DNA from: Gluconacetobacter azotocaptans
GTDB taxonomy: Bacteria > Pseudomonadota > Alphaproteobacteria > Acetobacterales > Acetobacteraceae
Direction: 5' to 3'
Length of the DNA stretch: 64,000 nucleotides
NCBI RefSeq assembly: GCF_014174355.1
Contig: NZ_JABEQF010000004.1
Span: 124,001-188,000, forward strand
The notes under the pieces were generated by a model that worked only from the letters and a program-made list of their open reading frames with translations, was not told the DNA's origin and ran no database searches. Positions 50,529 through 58,523 of the stretch are shown here, piece by piece (the stretch's first letter is position 1; each line of letters opens with the position of its first letter). The position numbers were made by a program, and so were the translations under genes.

Positions 50529-51860
50529 ATGAAACTCCGTTTTGCGCCCAGCCCGACGGGCCTGATCCATGTTGGCAATGCCCGGCAGGCCATTGCCAAC
50601 GCCCTGTTCGCCCGCCGCCACGGCGGCTCGTTCCTGCTGCGCATCGACGATACCGATCGCGACCGCTCGCGCGAGGATTATGTCGAGGCCCTGCGCACCG
50701 ACCTGGCGTGGCTTGGAATCGGCTGGGACGAGTACGTCCGGCAATCCGACCGGCTGGACCGCTACGCGCTGGCGATCGAACGGCTGAAGGCTTCCGGCCG
50801 CCTGTATCCGTGTTTCGAGAGCGAGCAGGAACTGGCCGCCAAGCGCGAGGCCCGGATTCGCATGCGCAAGCCCCCGATCTATGACCGGGCGATGCTGCGC
50901 ATGACGCCCGAACAGCGCGCGCAGGCCGAGGCCAACGGCAAGGTGCCGTACTGGCGCTTCCGCCTGTCCGACAGCATCGTGACGTGGAACGACCTGGTGA
51001 TGGGGCGCTCGCAGGTCAAGCTGACGGCGATCTCGGACCCGGTTCTGGTGCGGGCCGACGGTACGGTGCTGTACACGCTGGCGTCGGTCGTCGACGATAT
51101 CGAAACCGGCATCACCCATGTGGTCCGCGGCGAGGACCATGTGACGAATACCGGGGTGCAGATCGACATTGCACAGGCGCTGGGCGCACGGCCCGACCGC
51201 TTCGCGTTCGCCCATCTGCCGCTGTTGCTTGACGAGGGCGGGGGTAAGCTGTCGAAGCGCTTCGACGGGCTGTCGATCCGCGCCCTGCGCCAGGACGGGA
51301 TCGAGCCCGAGGCCGTGGTGTCCTACCTGGCGCGGTTGGGCAGCGCGGACGACCCGGCCCCGCTGTCGATGGACGAACTGGCCGCCGGGTACGACCTGGG
51401 GCGGGTGTCGCGGTCGGCGGCGCGGTTCGACATGCGGCAGCTTCTGGCGCTGAACCGCCGGATCATGCACCAGACGTCCTTCGAGGCCGTGCGCGCCCGC
51501 CTGCCCGAGGGCGCGACCGAGGCCTTCTGGCTGGCCGTCCGGGGCAATGTCGACATGGTTTCGGAGCTGCGCCACTGGTGGGATGTCGTCGCGGGCACGA
51601 TCGTCCCGCCGGTGCTGGACGACGAAAAGGAATATCTGCTGCAGGCCCTGGCGCTGCTGCCGGACGAACCGTGGGACGCGCAGACCTGGAAAGGCTGGAC
51701 GACGGCCCTGCGCGAGGCGACCGGCCGGACCGGCAAGGCGGTCTTCCACCCGTTGCGCGTGGCCCTGACGGGCGAGGAAAAGGGGCCTGAGATGCGCGAC
51801 CTGCTTCCGCTGATGGGCCGCGCGCGCGTGGCTGGGCGCCTGCGGATCGCCGCGCGATGA
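50529..51860 (+). CDS. gltX: Glutamyl-tRNA synthetase (short, 443 residues)
   Basis: This encodes 443 residues. The class I HIGH equivalent is APSPTGLIHVGNARQAI and the KMSKS equivalent is GGGKLSKRFDG. Alphaproteobacteria such as acetic acid bacteria usually carry two GluRS genes, one of which charges tRNA-Gln for the GatCAB route; which one this is cannot be settled by eye. The ATG at 50529 is direct. The 3' end overlaps the ArsC-like gene (ATGA). Confidence 0.94.
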   Translation: MKLRFAPSPTGLIHVGNARQAIANALFARRHGGSFLLRIDDTDRDRSREDYVEALRTDLAWLGIGWDEYVRQSDRLDRYALAIERLKASGRLYPCFESEQELAAKREARIRMRKPPIYDRAMLRMTPEQRAQAEANGKVPYWRFRLSDSIVTWNDLVMGRSQVKLTAISDPVLVRADGTVLYTLASVVDDIETGITHVVRGEDHVTNTGVQIDIAQALGARPDRFAFAHLPLLLDEGGGKLSKRFDGLSIRALRQDGIEPEAVVSYLARLGSADDPAPLSMDELAAGYDLGRVSRSAARFDMRQLLALNRRIMHQTSFEAVRARLPEGATEAFWLAVRGNVDMVSELRHWWDVVAGTIVPPVLDDEKEYLLQALALLPDEPWDAQTWKGWTTALREATGRTGKAVFHPLRVALTGEEKGPEMRDLLPLMGRARVAGRLRIAAR

Positions 51861-52207
51861 GCGATGTCGTCATCTGGCACAATCCGCGCTGCGGCACCTC
51901 GCGCAAGGTGCTCGACCTGCTGCGTGCCGAGGGGATCGAGCCTGCGATCGTCCTCTACCTCCAGACCCCGCCGGACCAGGCCACGCTGGCCGACGTGATC
52001 GCGCGGGCCGGGCTTTCGGTGCGCGAGGCGATCCGCAGCAAGGAGGCCGCCTATGGCGAACGGGGCCTGGACGACCCCGGGCTGGACGATGCGGCATTGC
52101 TGGACGCGATGGTGGCCGATCCGGTCCTGATCAACCGGCCGTTCGTAATGACCCCGCAGGGCGTGCGGCTGTGCCGCCCGGCGGAACGGGTGCGCGAGAT
52201 CCTCTGA
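51857..52207 (+). CDS. ArsC-family (glutaredoxin-type) arsenate reductase-like protein
   Basis: This encodes 116 residues. The N-terminal IWHNPRCGTSRKVLDLL carries the catalytic Cys of the ArsC family, and INRPFVMTPQGVRLCRP holds the Arg residues of the arsenate pocket. The family reduces arsenate with glutathione and glutaredoxin. No other ars gene is near, and it is coupled by a 4-base overlap to gltX, so a different redox role is possible. Confidence 0.9.
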   Translation: MSDVVIWHNPRCGTSRKVLDLLRAEGIEPAIVLYLQTPPDQATLADVIARAGLSVREAIRSKEAAYGERGLDDPGLDDAALLDAMVADPVLINRPFVMTPQGVRLCRPAERVREIL

Positions 52208-52271
52208 CGCTCCTGCGGGTCCGTTATTTCGTTGTTTCCCGACGCGGCGCTGTGCTCATATCGAGCGTGCA

Positions 52272-53525
52272 ATGGGGCGCAAGCGGGCGAAGGCAGTGCG
52301 GCAATCCTATCATTTCGTCGTCCTGCCGGTCGGTACGCTGGGCGACTTCCTTCCGGCCGCCGGACTGGCCCGGGAACTGGCGGCACGGGGACACGATGTC
52401 GATCTGATGGCCCAGGCGGCCTTCGCGCCGCATGCGCCGGGCGGGGGCGTCCGCTTCCGGACGTTCGGCCGGCAGGACGAGTATGAACGCGATGTCGCCA
52501 ACGTGCGCGTGCTGGACCGGCAGCAGCCGGTTCTTTACGAATCCCTGATTGCGCCGACCCTCCTGCCGCATCGCCTGGCGGTCGAAACCGCCGTCCGGAC
52601 GGGGACGAAACCGGTCATCGTGCTGTCGGCGGTGCACGGGGTGGGCGCGCTGTGGGCCGCCCGCTGCCTGGGCGCGCAGGCTATCGGCATGGTGACCACC
52701 CCCCCTTACATGATCGGATACCAGAACCCAAATCCGGTGGCGGATTCGGTCATGCGCGCGGCGTTCCGTGGCTGCGGCCTGCCGGATCTGCCGCCCCCCG
52801 TCCATGACGGCGCGCGGCTGTTCTGGGGCGATTTCATCATGACCTACGACGCGTTCCTGGAACTGTTTCCCGCTTGGCTGGAAACCGTTCCCATGCGGCG
52901 GGACGAGCGGCATATCCAGGGCACGTTTCCGGGTGGCAGCAGCGACACCGCCGTCCCGGAAATCGAGGCGTTCGCGCTCGACGGTTCGGCGCCATGGGTC
53001 TTCTTTCCCGGGTCGTCGGACATGCTCAACGTCGTCTGCCGCGATTTTCGCAGCGTGGTCGCCGAATATGCGCGTCGGTCGGGCCGGCGCTGCATCCTGA
53101 TCGACCGGACCCTGGACATGCCGTTCCAGCGGGTGGCGGACAATCTGGTGGCTACCCCCTGCACGGACATGAACCGCCTGCTGCCGCTGGCGCGCGGCAT
53201 CCTGCATCATGGCGGGATCGGCATCGTGTCGCAGTCCCTGGTGGCCGGCCTGCCGCAGATCGTCGTGCCCGTGGGGTTCGACCAGCCGGCGAACGCCCAG
53301 TGGCTGGAAGACAGGGGCGTCGCCGTCACGACCATGCCGGCGGCGCTGTCCGCGTCGCATCTGCTCGATCTGGTGGCCGAAGCCGAGGCCCTGCCGCCAG
53401 GATCGGCGCGGGAACTGGCCCGGCGCCTGAGGCGCGAGGGTGGAACGGCCGGCCTGGCCGATATGCTGCTGGACCGCCTGGACGGCCGTGTGCCCGCGTC
53501 CGGACTGGTACGGAGCGTGGCGTGA
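52272..53525 (+). CDS. GT1-type (UGT-like) glycosyltransferase
   Basis: This encodes 417 residues. The N-terminus VVLPVGTLGDFLPAAGLARELAARGHDV is the acceptor domain of MGT/UGT-like GT1 enzymes. The donor-binding signature HHGGIGIVSQSLVAGLPQIV, with His312-His313, and VPVGFDQPANA closes the C-domain. These enzymes glycosylate lipids, sterols, macrolides or other small molecules with UDP or TDP sugars. The stop overlaps the following condensation-domain gene (GTGA), implying a coupled pathway. Donor and acceptor are unknown. Confidence 0.85.
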   Translation: MGRKRAKAVRQSYHFVVLPVGTLGDFLPAAGLARELAARGHDVDLMAQAAFAPHAPGGGVRFRTFGRQDEYERDVANVRVLDRQQPVLYESLIAPTLLPHRLAVETAVRTGTKPVIVLSAVHGVGALWAARCLGAQAIGMVTTPPYMIGYQNPNPVADSVMRAAFRGCGLPDLPPPVHDGARLFWGDFIMTYDAFLELFPAWLETVPMRRDERHIQGTFPGGSSDTAVPEIEAFALDGSAPWVFFPGSSDMLNVVCRDFRSVVAEYARRSGRRCILIDRTLDMPFQRVADNLVATPCTDMNRLLPLARGILHHGGIGIVSQSLVAGLPQIVVPVGFDQPANAQWLEDRGVAVTTMPAALSASHLLDLVAEAEALPPGSARELARRLRREGGTAGLADMLLDRLDGRVPASGLVRSVA

Positions 53526-54820
53526 CCGGGGCGGGCGCGCTGGTGCCGTCCCCCGCCGGCCACCTGCCGCTGACCATGCGGGACCGGGTGCTGCTGCCGC
53601 GATTCTATACCCGCTTCGGCCCTTCGGGATCGACCTCGCAGACCAACCTGGTCTACGGCACTGTGATCAGGGGCGAGGTCGATGTGGACGCCCTGCGGTC
53701 CGCTGTCGGCCGGGTGGTCGAGGCCAACCCCGAATTGCGGGCCTTCTATTCGGGCCCCGACCAGGACCCGGCGAAATATTGCGCCTCGCCGGACGTGCCT
53801 TTCCATTTCGAGGACTGCCGGGGCGACGGCGCCGCGTTCAAGGCGGCGGTGCGGGCGGCGATCGCGCATCCGTTCAACCTGACCGACTACCCGCTGATCC
53901 GCGTTACGCTGGTACGCCGCGCGCCCGCGCGCTACGTGTTCATCCTGTGCGCCCATCACCTGGCGGTCGACGGATGGTCGATCGTGATGTTCCTGCGGGC
54001 CATTTCCCGGCTGTACAAGGTGGACCGTCCGGCGTCGCGGCCGGCCGTCGGCATGCCGGACTATCTGCGCGACCGCGAGGCTTATCTGGAATCCGACGCC
54101 GCCGCCGCCGATACCGCCCGGGCGCTGGCGTGGCTGACCCCGGCCATCCCGGCCCTGCGTCCGGCGCAGCCGACGGTGTTTCCGTCGCCCGAGGAAGTCC
54201 ATCGTCTGGTCCGTCTGGACCGGCAGGCCGTCCGGCAGGCCTGCCAGGCGCTGGGCCTGAGCGTGACCGAGGTGCACCGCGTCCTGTTCGTGCTGGTCCA
54301 GCACGCGCTGACCGGGCTGGACGAACTGGGCTTCAGCGAATCACATCCCAACCGGCCGCCCGAGGGGCTGGGCCTGTATGGCTTCCTATCCGACGACCAT
54401 CTGGTCCGCGTGAGCATCCGGCCGGGCGACACCGTCCGCGATCTGGTCAATGCCGTGAACCGGGGGCTGGATCACGCCCGGGAGTACGAGGGCCTGCCGG
54501 CGGCCACCTTGCTGCGGCGGCTTTATGACGGGCCGCCGCTGCCGCGATTCCATTTCAATCCGTTCGGGGTGGGGACGAACGCGCTGCGGCTGGGTGGATT
54601 GTCCATCCGTCATTTCAAGACGATGAAGGCCTTCGCGCTGACGGACCTGACCTTCGTGTCCCTGAACGCGGATTTCGCCTTTATCGCCATGGCGCGGCCC
54701 GAGGTCGACGGCTACGACATCGACGCTGTCGCCGCCTGCCTGCGGCGGGCGCTGGCGATGCTGGCCGACCCCATGCGCCCGCTGTCGCATGGGTTGCTGC
54801 GCTCGGGCTGGGCGGCCTGA
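53522..54820 (+). CDS. Stand-alone condensation-domain/PapA-like acyltransferase
   Basis: This encodes 432 residues from a GTG at 53522. Its catalytic motif AHHLAVDGWS (His145, His146, Asp150, Gly151) is the HHxxxDG of condensation and PapA-type acyltransferases. The preceding VVEANPELRAFY and following DYLRDREAYL fit the fold. The conventional DFGWG structural motif is not evident. No adenylation or carrier domain is attached or nearby. It overlaps the GT1 gene by 4 bases, so it probably esterifies or amidates a GT1 product or substrate. Confidence 0.8.
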   Translation: MTGAGALVPSPAGHLPLTMRDRVLLPRFYTRFGPSGSTSQTNLVYGTVIRGEVDVDALRSAVGRVVEANPELRAFYSGPDQDPAKYCASPDVPFHFEDCRGDGAAFKAAVRAAIAHPFNLTDYPLIRVTLVRRAPARYVFILCAHHLAVDGWSIVMFLRAISRLYKVDRPASRPAVGMPDYLRDREAYLESDAAAADTARALAWLTPAIPALRPAQPTVFPSPEEVHRLVRLDRQAVRQACQALGLSVTEVHRVLFVLVQHALTGLDELGFSESHPNRPPEGLGLYGFLSDDHLVRVSIRPGDTVRDLVNAVNRGLDHAREYEGLPAATLLRRLYDGPPLPRFHFNPFGVGTNALRLGGLSIRHFKTMKAFALTDLTFVSLNADFAFIAMARPEVDGYDIDAVAACLRRALAMLADPMRPLSHGLLRSGWAA

Positions 54821-54826
54821 CCGCCC

Positions 54827-55621
54827 TCAGCCCTGTGGCTGTTCCTTCGCCTGGCGGGATCTGCGGCCGCGTGCCAGTTCGGTGACCACGCCGTGCAGCG
54901 TGCGCAGTTCCTGTTCGGTCACTTCGCCACGGGTGAAGAAGTGGCGCAGGTTGCGGACCATGCCGGCGCGTTTCTGTTCGTTGCGCAGGAAACCGCACTC
55001 ATCCAGATCGTCGATCAGATGGCGCATGAAATTGTCCAGCTCGCCCTTGGTGGCCACATGGGTTTCGTTGGTCATCAGCGTGCGGGGCGGCGTGGCGTCG
55101 GCGGCCATCCACCATTCGTAGGCCATGATCATGACCGCCTGCGACAGATTCAGCGACATGAAGGCGGGGTTGAGCGGATAGCGGATCAACGCGTCCGCCC
55201 GCGCCATGTCCTCATTGTCCAGGCCCGCCCGCTCGGGGCCGAACAGCAGGCCGGTCCGCATTCCGCGCAGGCTGGCCTGCCGCAGTTCGGCGGCGCCGCC
55301 CCGCGCGGTCAGCACGGTCTTGACGATGTGGCGTGGGCGCGGACAGGTGGCCAGCACATGGTGCAGGTCGGCGATCGCGTCATCGACGCTGTCATGCACC
55401 GTGGCGGCCTCGAGGATGCGGTCGGCGCCCGACGCCGAACGCCAGGCGCGTTCCTGCGGCCAGCCGTCGCGCGGGGCCACCAGGCGCAGGTGGAACAGGC
55501 CGCCATTGGCCATCGCCCGCGCCGTGGTGCCGATATTCTCGGCCATCTGCGGGCGGACCAGAATGACGACCGGGCTGTTGCCGATGGGCGCGATGTCGGC
55601 GCCGCCGTCACGGCCGGTCAT
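54827..55621 (-). CDS. trmJ: TrmJ-type tRNA/rRNA 2'-O-methyltransferase (SPOUT)
   Basis: This encodes 264 residues. The SPOUT core shows VILVRPQMAENIGTTARAM, GLLFGPERAGLDNEDMARAD and FMSLNLSQAVMIMAYEWW, the knotted S-adenosylmethionine site of the SpoU/TrmJ family. A C-terminal helical extension follows (about 180-264). E. coli TrmJ methylates position 32 of tRNA. The ATG at 55621 overlaps the cysS stop by 4 bases, and the gene is convergent with the condensation-domain gene. Confidence 0.9.
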   Translation of the reverse strand: MTGRDGGADIAPIGNSPVVILVRPQMAENIGTTARAMANGGLFHLRLVAPRDGWPQERAWRSASGADRILEAATVHDSVDDAIADLHHVLATCPRPRHIVKTVLTARGGAAELRQASLRGMRTGLLFGPERAGLDNEDMARADALIRYPLNPAFMSLNLSQAVMIMAYEWWMAADATPPRTLMTNETHVATKGELDNFMRHLIDDLDECGFLRNEQKRAGMVRNLRHFFTRGEVTEQELRTLHGVVTELARGRRSRQAKEQPQG

Positions 55622-56979: not shown

Positions 56980-57125
56980 GATGGCGCCTAGATGCGACAC
57001 CGGCGGGGCGGACGCAACACCCTTGTGCGCGCGGCGGGGCGCAACGTGCGGAATGGGGGGATTTCCCGGCCCGTGTATGGACGCCCGTCTGGCCATCGGG
57101 TGCCCGATCTGCTTTGGATGCCGGC

Positions 57126-58523
57126 ATGCTTGTTCCGGTCTCCCCCCCGTCCGAAATCCGCCTGCTGCTGCGCATCGCCGGGCCAGTCGCCCTGGCGCAG
57201 ATCGCCCAGATGGTCATGGGGGTGACCGACAGCGTTCTGCTGGGGGGGCTGGGCGCCGATGCGCTGGCGATCGGCGGCCTGTCCACCACCCTGTTCTTCA
57301 CCGTCCTCGCCGTGCTTCAGGCGATGCTGGGCGCGGGCGGCGTCCTGATCGCCCAGGCGGTCGGACGGGGCGACACCGACGATATCGCGCCCATCCATAC
57401 AATGCTGCTGGTGCTGGCGCTGCTGCTGTGCGTGCCCTGCCTGTTCATCCTGGTCCAGGCCGGGCCGTTGCTGCGCCTGATGCACGAACCCGACGCGGTC
57501 GTCGGGCCGGTCACGGCGTTCGTGCACATTCTGATGTGGGGGGTGCCTCCGGCGCTGCTGGGGACCGGTGTCGTCAATGTCGTGCTGCCGGCGGTCGACG
57601 CGCAGGGTATCCTGCTGCGGGTGATGCCGGTCGTCGCCCTGGCGAACGGCCTGCTGAACGCAGCCCTGATCCATGGCCTGTGGGGGCTGCCGCGACTGGG
57701 GCTGACGGGTTCGGCGCTGGCGACGGTCCTGACGATGTGGGGCGCGGCGTTCGTGCTGCTGGGCATGGTGCATGGGCGGCCGCATCTGCGCGGCATGCTG
57801 TGGCCATGGCGCCTCCGGCCCGGGACGATGCGGCTTCTGCTGCGTCTGGGCCTGCCGATGATGGCGTCGGCGGGGGCCGAGATGATGCTGTTCGAGGTCA
57901 CCAGCCTGCAGGCCGCCCTGTTCGGCACCCATGCCCTGGCGGCCCATCAGGTCGTACTGAGCGTGACGTCGATGACCTACATGGCGACCATGGCGCTGGG
58001 CCAGGCGGCCAATGTCCGCGTCGCCTTCTGGACCGGGGCGGGCCAGTCGGCGCGTGCGCGGCATGCGGCACGGGTGGCGGTGGGCACCAGCATGCTAGTG
58101 ATGGGCACGGTAAGTTGCCTGATCTACCTTTTTCGCGCCCCGATCGTGGGTTTCTACCTGGACCCGGCCGTGGCCGCCAACCACGAGAGCATCGGAATCG
58201 CGATGACCGGCCTGCTGGCGGCGGCGATCCTGCAGGTGGCCGACGGAACGCAGGCGGTGCTGGGCGGCGTGCTGCGGGGACGTGGGGACGCCGTGGTGCC
58301 GATGGTGCTGGCGGTCGCCGGCTATTGGGGGGTGGGTTTTCCCCTGGGGGCGTGGCTGGCGTTCCATCAGTCGATGGGCATCACCGGATTATGGAGCGGC
58401 ATCGCCGTTGCCCTGGTCGCGGTGTCGCTCATGCTGGGAGCACGGGCGGCATGGTCGCTGGGTGATCGCTGGGCCGGCGCCGGGCGGGCTGCGACGCCCG
58501 AGGCGTCAGCGTCCCGACCCTGA
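57126..58523 (+). CDS. MATE-family multidrug/cation antiporter (NorM-like)
   Basis: This encodes 465 residues from the ATG at 57126; a TTG at 57114 would add 4. Twelve helices are predicted in two halves. The start, RIAGPVALAQIAQMVMGVTDSVLLGGLGADALAIGG, and the middle LRLGLPMMASAGAEMMLFEV are characteristic of NorM-type exporters. It should expel organic cations or dyes using a Na+ or H+ gradient. It is convergent with prfC. Confidence 0.9.
   Translation: MLVPVSPPSEIRLLLRIAGPVALAQIAQMVMGVTDSVLLGGLGADALAIGGLSTTLFFTVLAVLQAMLGAGGVLIAQAVGRGDTDDIAPIHTMLLVLALLLCVPCLFILVQAGPLLRLMHEPDAVVGPVTAFVHILMWGVPPALLGTGVVNVVLPAVDAQGILLRVMPVVALANGLLNAALIHGLWGLPRLGLTGSALATVLTMWGAAFVLLGMVHGRPHLRGMLWPWRLRPGTMRLLLRLGLPMMASAGAEMMLFEVTSLQAALFGTHALAAHQVVLSVTSMTYMATMALGQAANVRVAFWTGAGQSARARHAARVAVGTSMLVMGTVSCLIYLFRAPIVGFYLDPAVAANHESIGIAMTGLLAAAILQVADGTQAVLGGVLRGRGDAVVPMVLAVAGYWGVGFPLGAWLAFHQSMGITGLWSGIAVALVAVSLMLGARAAWSLGDRWAGAGRAATPEASASRP

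Follow-up and report, generated by a model that had tools for sequence, protein, structure and literature searches.

A glycosyltransferase gene overlapping the gene of a stand-alone condensation domain in Gluconacetobacter azotocaptans: a candidate glycolipid unit

What could a glycosyltransferase make together with a condensation domain of the nonribosomal peptide synthetase (NRPS) type that stands alone in its genome? The question is raised by two overlapping genes in a stretch of 64,000 nucleotides from Gluconacetobacter azotocaptans (contig NZ_JABEQF010000004.1, positions 124,001 to 188,000, forward strand), which is referred to as the window and to which all coordinates apply unless a locus is named. 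We know of few condensation domains that act outside NRPS assembly lines. We propose, with a probability of roughly two in five, that the pair is a compact accessory glycolipid unit which resembles the rhamnolipid system and in which the stand-alone condensation domain occupies the seat of the lipid-forming partner. The pair comprises the following features:

52272..53525, + strand: glycosyltransferase of family GT1 (GT-B fold), RhlB clade, 417 amino acids (open reading frame (ORF), Pfam, tree, predicted structure)
53522..54820, + strand: stand-alone NRPS-type condensation domain, 432 amino acids, GTG start, intact HHxxxDG (ORF, Pfam, predicted structure)
53522..53525, + strand: start/stop overlap GTGA of the two genes, identical in three carrier species
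53954..53974, + strand: codons of the catalytic motif HHxxxDG, residues 145-151, computed from the start at 53522

The start of the condensation gene was set to the GTG at 53522, as the mechanically called ORF from 52874 begins too early. The overlap of four bases, already seen in a preliminary description of the locus, is thereby confirmed.

A condensation domain outside an assembly line

The product of the second gene matches the Pfam model Condensation (PF00668) with 73.3 bits at a cut-off of 30.6, and its catalytic motif reads H145, H146, LAV, D150 and G151. Compared with 85 condensation-domain homologs, it carries the majority residue at L72, R73, H145, H146, D150, G151, W152, S153, G287 and R296. 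Other positions are altered. In the motif nomenclature C1 to C7, position 21 in C1 is D where 84 of the 85 homologs have Q, RHE of C2 is replaced by ANP, W of C4 (57 of 85) and N of C5 (77 of 85) are both replaced by D, and HQ of C6 is YE. Altered motifs C1, C2, C5 and C6 next to a retained HHxxxDG might be expected if contacts within a synthetase had been released. The homologs derive from 95 condensation-domain stretches, of which five second copies from the same genome and the sequence of locus L151 stayed unaligned; two plasmid rows were later removed, and seven long rows were additionally left out of the residue comparison.

An AlphaFold2 model built from 88 aligned rows, with a mean predicted local distance difference test score (pLDDT) of 90 and a predicted template modelling score (pTM) of 0.89, has the full two-lobed condensation fold with the motif intact. 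The preliminary description had suggested that a structural model be used to judge whether the active site is workable, and this judgement turned out favourable. All 50 matches listed by Foldseek for the model are condensation-fold chains, with Txo2 in first place (E 1e-27), and SgcC5 (4znm) is also found among the fold matches. The highest template modelling (TM) scores among the listed rows, 0.77-0.78, belong to the starter condensation domains of RzmA with C8-CoA, while VIA-align placed the first condensation domain of CDA on top (Z 34.2, root-mean-square deviation 3.4, 403 aligned residues), ahead of Txo2 and CmnI (both Z 33.7), RzmA (32.9) and VibH (31.0). The resemblance to these starter domains extends to the full fold, the motif and the top-ranking scores. 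Unlike the domains of RzmA and CDA, the protein is not fused to adenylation and thiolation (A-T) domains, its genome contains no other condensation domain, and four of its motifs are altered as described above. In RzmA, R148, located three residues past the motif glycine, gates acyl length, and a larger side chain at this place leads to a shorter acyl group (PMC7804268). Since this acyl-gate offset is occupied by Ile154 in the protein studied here, a medium acyl chain would be allowed.

The preliminary description had classed the protein as a condensation domain or PapA-like acyltransferase. The former assignment stands, the latter does not: the PapA5 model NF006787 reaches 15.1 bits, with its cut-off at 396, and no PapA model appears in the list of Pfam matches up to E 0.1. 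There is also no PapA structure among the 50 structural matches listed, which excludes nothing.

Within the whole genome, the gene is the sole match to PF00668 at E ≤ 0.001. At the same threshold there are three matches to the carrier family PF00550 and three to the AMP-binding family PF00501, and none of these lies on the 386-kb contig (C4) that bears the pair. The combination of carrier and adenylation functions in one protein or cluster that marks an NRPS assembly line is therefore missing at the locus. As the condensation family is represented only once in the genome and both other families are absent from the contig, the gene does not belong to an NRPS encoded at this locus, in agreement with the earlier statement that no carrier, adenylation or polyketide synthase part is near. 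One of the carrier matches is of the fatty-acid-synthase type, and its gene immediately precedes that of a ketoacyl synthase on contig C18, another resides inside a frame of 2383 amino acids on contig C1, and the third is located near an AMP-ligase on C18. At the latter site (L237, 965-3885), the gene for a protein of 377 amino acids without Pfam match overlaps that of the AMP-ligase, with the carrier domain close by. The AMP-ligase and carrier encoded at this site might provide acyl groups in activated form, acting in trans.

VibH and SgcC5 are free-standing condensation enzymes. The protein shares with them, and with OaaC, the presence of a single condensation domain and the action in trans that we propose for it. 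OaaC uses an acyl-acyl carrier protein (acyl-ACP), has its own adenylation and ACP genes and belongs to a fatty-acid-amide (FAA) clade nearest the starter condensation domains (PMC13142362). A protein of this kind would join acyl-ACP to a free amine, and the glycosyltransferase would then act on the amide or on something unrelated. We regard this as quite improbable: adenylation and carrier matches are absent from the contig, and the usual FAA motif is (D/H)HxxxDS, with the glycine that is retained here seen in only 17% of FAA domains (same source). The pair also differs from OaaC in having a glycosyltransferase as partner.

A glycosyltransferase of the RhlB clade

The product of the first gene matches the Pfam model EryCIII-like_C (PF06722) with 47.9 bits (cut-off 31.7); a match of its N-terminal part to Glyco_transf_28 stays below the threshold (23.6 versus 26.2). 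The structural model (pLDDT 78.7, pTM 0.82) exhibits a GT-B fold. Its nearest structures are antibiotic-type GT1 enzymes, and GT-B chains are matched with E 2e-18. A GTLGD motif is found near the N terminus and the donor-site motif HHGG near residue 312.

In a careful tree reconstruction, the glycosyltransferase groups with those of Polaromonas and Methylorubrum and with Burkholderia proteins identified as RhlB by their gene neighbourhood (7 rows, support 100/100). A quick method yielded the same grouping as a clade of 12 rows with a support of 100 in the Shimodaira-Hasegawa-like approximate likelihood ratio test (SH-aLRT). The nearest row in both is the Polaromonas enzyme, at weaker support (81/74 and 88). 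The larger tree was calculated without L040, which has a long branch, without five hits shorter than 350 residues (L207, L212, L213, L221 and L222) and without L182, L195 and L196 of the smaller tree. RhlA adjoins three of the nine other rows of the 12-row clade (L036, L037, L197), as well as the short hit L213 outside the tree; a larger alpha/beta hydrolase adjoins three more (L038, L039, L203), and neither of the two occurs within the short flanks of L200, L201 and L204. The B. glumae enzyme resides in a cluster of the type rhlA-rhlB-MFS-rhlC (MFS, major facilitator superfamily), where the rhl names were assigned in our analysis and the record itself names an alpha/beta hydrolase, a nucleotide-sugar-binding protein, an MFS protein and a GT2 enzyme.

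In the rhamnolipid pathway, RhlA supplies the lipid, to which RhlB attaches rhamnose (PMC12413298). The pair resembles this system in that a GT1 enzyme of the RhlB clade adjoins an acyl-handling enzyme. In addition, rmlD scores over its cut-off in the genome, and dTDP-rhamnose may therefore be available. The pair differs from RhlA-RhlB by the presence of an NRPS-type condensation domain instead of RhlA, an alpha/beta hydrolase, and it is flanked by arsC and trmJ without RhlC, an exporter or a regulator beside it. Because the glycosyltransferase groups with RhlB, whose partner makes the lipid before it is glycosylated, condensation as the first step and glycosylation as the second appear likelier than the reverse. 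In the glycolipid unit that we propose, the condensation domain would accept, in trans, an acyl group bound to the acyl carrier protein of fatty acid synthase or to CoA and would join it to a small acceptor by an ester or amide bond. The translationally coupled RhlB-type enzyme would then add a sugar, perhaps rhamnose, to the hydroxylated lipid. The identities of donor, acceptor, sugar and product, and the sequence of the two reactions, are inferred. A further-reaching and rather doubtful idea is that an NRPS-derived condensation domain was recruited out of an assembly line and replaced RhlA beside an RhlB-type glycosyltransferase in a two-gene glycolipid pathway.

The preliminary description had proposed the opposite sequence of events. 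Its view of the two genes as one unit is supported by the fact that they go together, whereas the order of steps that it assumed is disfavoured by the RhlB grouping. In such a scheme a lipid or small molecule would first be glycosylated by the glycosyltransferase, whereupon the condensation domain would acylate a hydroxyl group of the sugar. PapA-type and SgcC5-type proteins are ester-forming enzymes of the condensation fold, and the appearance of SgcC5 among the fold matches, the several altered NRPS motifs and the order of the genes, glycosyltransferase first, are all compatible with it. We nevertheless consider it unlikely, as the partner of RhlB acts before the glycosyltransferase and the PapA5 model matches weakly.

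On the plasmids of Polaromonas JS666 (L038, 6016-8540) and Methylorubrum CM4 (L039, 4685-7245), the gene for the RhlB-clade enzyme overlaps that for an alpha/beta-hydrolase-like protein of 406-437 amino acids, and in one further genome (L203) it stands beside a relative of this hydrolase. The two plasmid hydrolases share 29% identity. These units resemble the Gluconacetobacter pair with respect to the clade of the glycosyltransferase and the overlap of four bases with an acyl-type partner, but their partners are hydrolase-like. The Polaromonas protein of 406 amino acids was considered as a condensation domain and dismissed, since it shows no similarity to one and is alpha/beta-hydrolase-like at weak scores. 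It is possible that the units of glycosyltransferase and larger hydrolase represent another unstudied glycolipid pair.

Neighbouring genes for a condensation domain and a GT1 enzyme also exist in other Acetobacteraceae. In five genera of the family (L097-L102 and L181), a GT1 gene adjoins a single-module synthetase gene. The domain order condensation, adenylation, thiolation, thioesterase (C-A-T-TE) was confirmed by Pfam for L098 and L102, while the synthetase frame of L097 is broken into three ORFs. L098, and apparently some of the other clusters, contain an ATP-binding cassette (ABC) exporter pair. The products are probably glycosylated lipopeptides or siderophores. In principle, the Gluconacetobacter pair could be the relic of such a cluster after loss of A, T and TE, because the same two families are neighbours in these five other genera and because one tree places the condensation protein loosely within a group of 26 rows that includes condensation domains of the clusters. 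Unlike the glycosyltransferases of these multidomain clusters, that of the pair belongs to a different clade, and its descent from the cluster clade was rejected by the approximately unbiased (AU) test with p 3.8e-7 for a group that was defined by gene neighbourhood and tested after the 7-row tree had been seen. For the condensation domain, the rejection is weak (p 0.03, obtained with the simpler LG+G4 model and 41 of 88 rows picked by us). Both genes are, moreover, under purifying selection and the condensation motif is intact. A stripped cluster is thus very improbable.

Two further candidates for a second pair were discarded. At L091, a glycosyltransferase next to a condensation frame of 515 amino acids turned out to be an NRPS frame of 1382 amino acids cut by the end of the locus. 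A stand-alone condensation frame in genome G127 (L103) adjoins a protein whose domains, judged by eye, are A-T, and both are probably parts of a split NRPS. No other glycosyltransferase adjoining a lone condensation domain was found in the collected loci, 16 further stretches and 29 loci from the phylum-wide glycosyltransferase search, with flanks of often only 1.5 kb and at most 30 loci per search. In a survey of Acetobacteraceae genomes, 14 of 96 acetous species had NRPS genes, and 10 of 15 of these genes were monomodular. For two Komagataeibacter clusters that lack a condensation domain, the survey suggested that hypothetical genes of a non-canonical kind may provide it; the pair is not mentioned in the part of the survey that was available (PMC8776678). 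Nor did searches of open-licence PMC papers list a report on a pair of lone condensation domain and glycosyltransferase. The combination of genes is new, assembled from already known parts.

Conservation of the pair in a variable junction

Full-length orthologs of both genes are present in three of 14 Gluconacetobacter genomes including that of the window, and neither gene occurs in the other 11. In G. johannae and G. tumulisoli, the nearest other carriers, identity to the window's proteins amounts to 94 and 90% for the condensation protein and 93 and 88% for the glycosyltransferase. One of the remaining genomes (G012) gave weak condensation matches of the synthetase type only. The ratio of nonsynonymous to synonymous substitution rates (dN/dS) between the window and these carriers is 0.19 and 0.22 for the glycosyltransferase gene and 0.11 and 0.19 for the condensation gene. 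Six core neighbours have ratios of 0.03-0.21 and arsC has 0.35 and 0.17, and a control ORF in antisense orientation (56988-58064) reaches 1.1 and 1.4. Both genes are thus under purifying selection, and with amino acid identities of 88-94% in two species they are not chance frames. We conclude that the pair is real, conserved in a narrow group and probably functional. The control ORF on the minus strand has no Pfam or NCBIfam match and is very likely not a gene.

Beyond the three carriers the picture is sparse. Across 84,980 species genomes, a scan that reaches only close relatives returned five loci for the condensation protein, two from Gluconacetobacter species and three from Nocardia synthetases at 25-29% identity. 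In searches that scored no more than a few top candidates per genome, the protein was matched in 45 of 299 genomes of the family (at most 37% identity and over part of the query outside the window's genome, G000, and the carrier genome G002), in 36 of 385 of the class and in 79 of 398 of the phylum, with identities among the matches listed of at most 36% and 39%, respectively, besides the window's own. The glycosyltransferase was matched in 45 of the 299 family genomes and in 53 of the 398 phylum genomes, the best matches outside the three carriers having E-values of 9e-13 and 5e-22. The co-occurrence across Acetobacteraceae that the preliminary description had asked about therefore holds insofar as the two genes travel together, but it is limited to one group of three species.

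The flanking genes (gltX, arsC, trmJ, cysS and prfC) are of the housekeeping type. Upstream, gltX and arsC run in the same direction as the pair and overlap each other by four bases; trmJ, cysS and prfC follow downstream in the opposite direction.

51857..52207, + strand: arsC-like arsenate reductase gene, adjoining the pair in each of the three carriers

The GC content of the pair (69.3 and 69.6%) falls within that of the neighbouring genes (66.9-69.8%). A consensus scan of 51700-55000 found no promoter-like site, with 0.3 expected by chance.

The gltX-trmJ junction (51860-54827 in the window; L111-L123) is variable in Gluconacetobacter, where other species carry different cargo, or next to none, instead of arsC and the pair. 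gltX and trmJ are still close in nine of the 11 other genomes, 146 bp to 2.7 kb apart, and in G004 and G012 gltX lies outside the 13-kb stretch taken. In these two (L113, 2702-6500; L120, 2277-6500), trmJ borders an array of clustered regularly interspaced short palindromic repeats (CRISPR)-like type with Cas1-like ORFs, named by eye. Other cargo, also named by eye, includes a MATE-type pump, an acyltransferase-3-type protein and argC. arsC and both genes of the pair are absent from the junction stretches of all 11 genomes (E < 1e-8). The gltX product of the other carriers is 98 and 95% identical to that of the window, compared with about 84-85% in the remaining genomes. As the three carriers form one group by this measure, the simplest history is that their common ancestor gained the genes once; loss elsewhere is the alternative.

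A junction with such changing content could have brought two unrelated accessory genes side by side by chance, with no joint pathway. This has little probability, because the overlap of four bases is identical in three species and the genes are present on an all-or-none basis, with similar synonymous divergence (dS) and selection.

Weight and meaning of the glycolipid reading

Several observations weigh against the proposed glycolipid unit. The glycosyltransferase has a long branch, with 2.4-2.5 changes per column, and may therefore have acquired another acceptor, and several of its best-scoring matches (L198, L199, L202) fall outside the RhlB clade. The condensation protein has a branch length of 2.9 and no close kin in its tree. 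This tree contains no labelled starter references; the fold ranks favour CDA and RzmA slightly, and the resemblance to starter domains is weak since these differ from other condensation domains by few Z units. Neither a transporter nor an acyl ligase nor a dedicated carrier is encoded near the pair. Likewise, rhlA is not beside it, and no RhlA match was obtained at E 1e-5 in the 14-kb stretches of the other carriers (L122, L123); the rest of the window's genome was not searched for RhlA.

Taken as a whole, the interpretation put forward in the preliminary description is partly supported. It had named separate occurrence of the genes or an unworkable active site as grounds for giving it up, and the pair is conserved together and the active site intact.

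If the proposal is true, the pair would provide a minimal and easily expressed glycolipid pathway in a genome without any other condensation domain, and a natural test of how such a domain functions without carrier partners. Even if ordinary, the pair still adds a small orphan unit to the biosynthetic repertoire of acetic acid bacteria.
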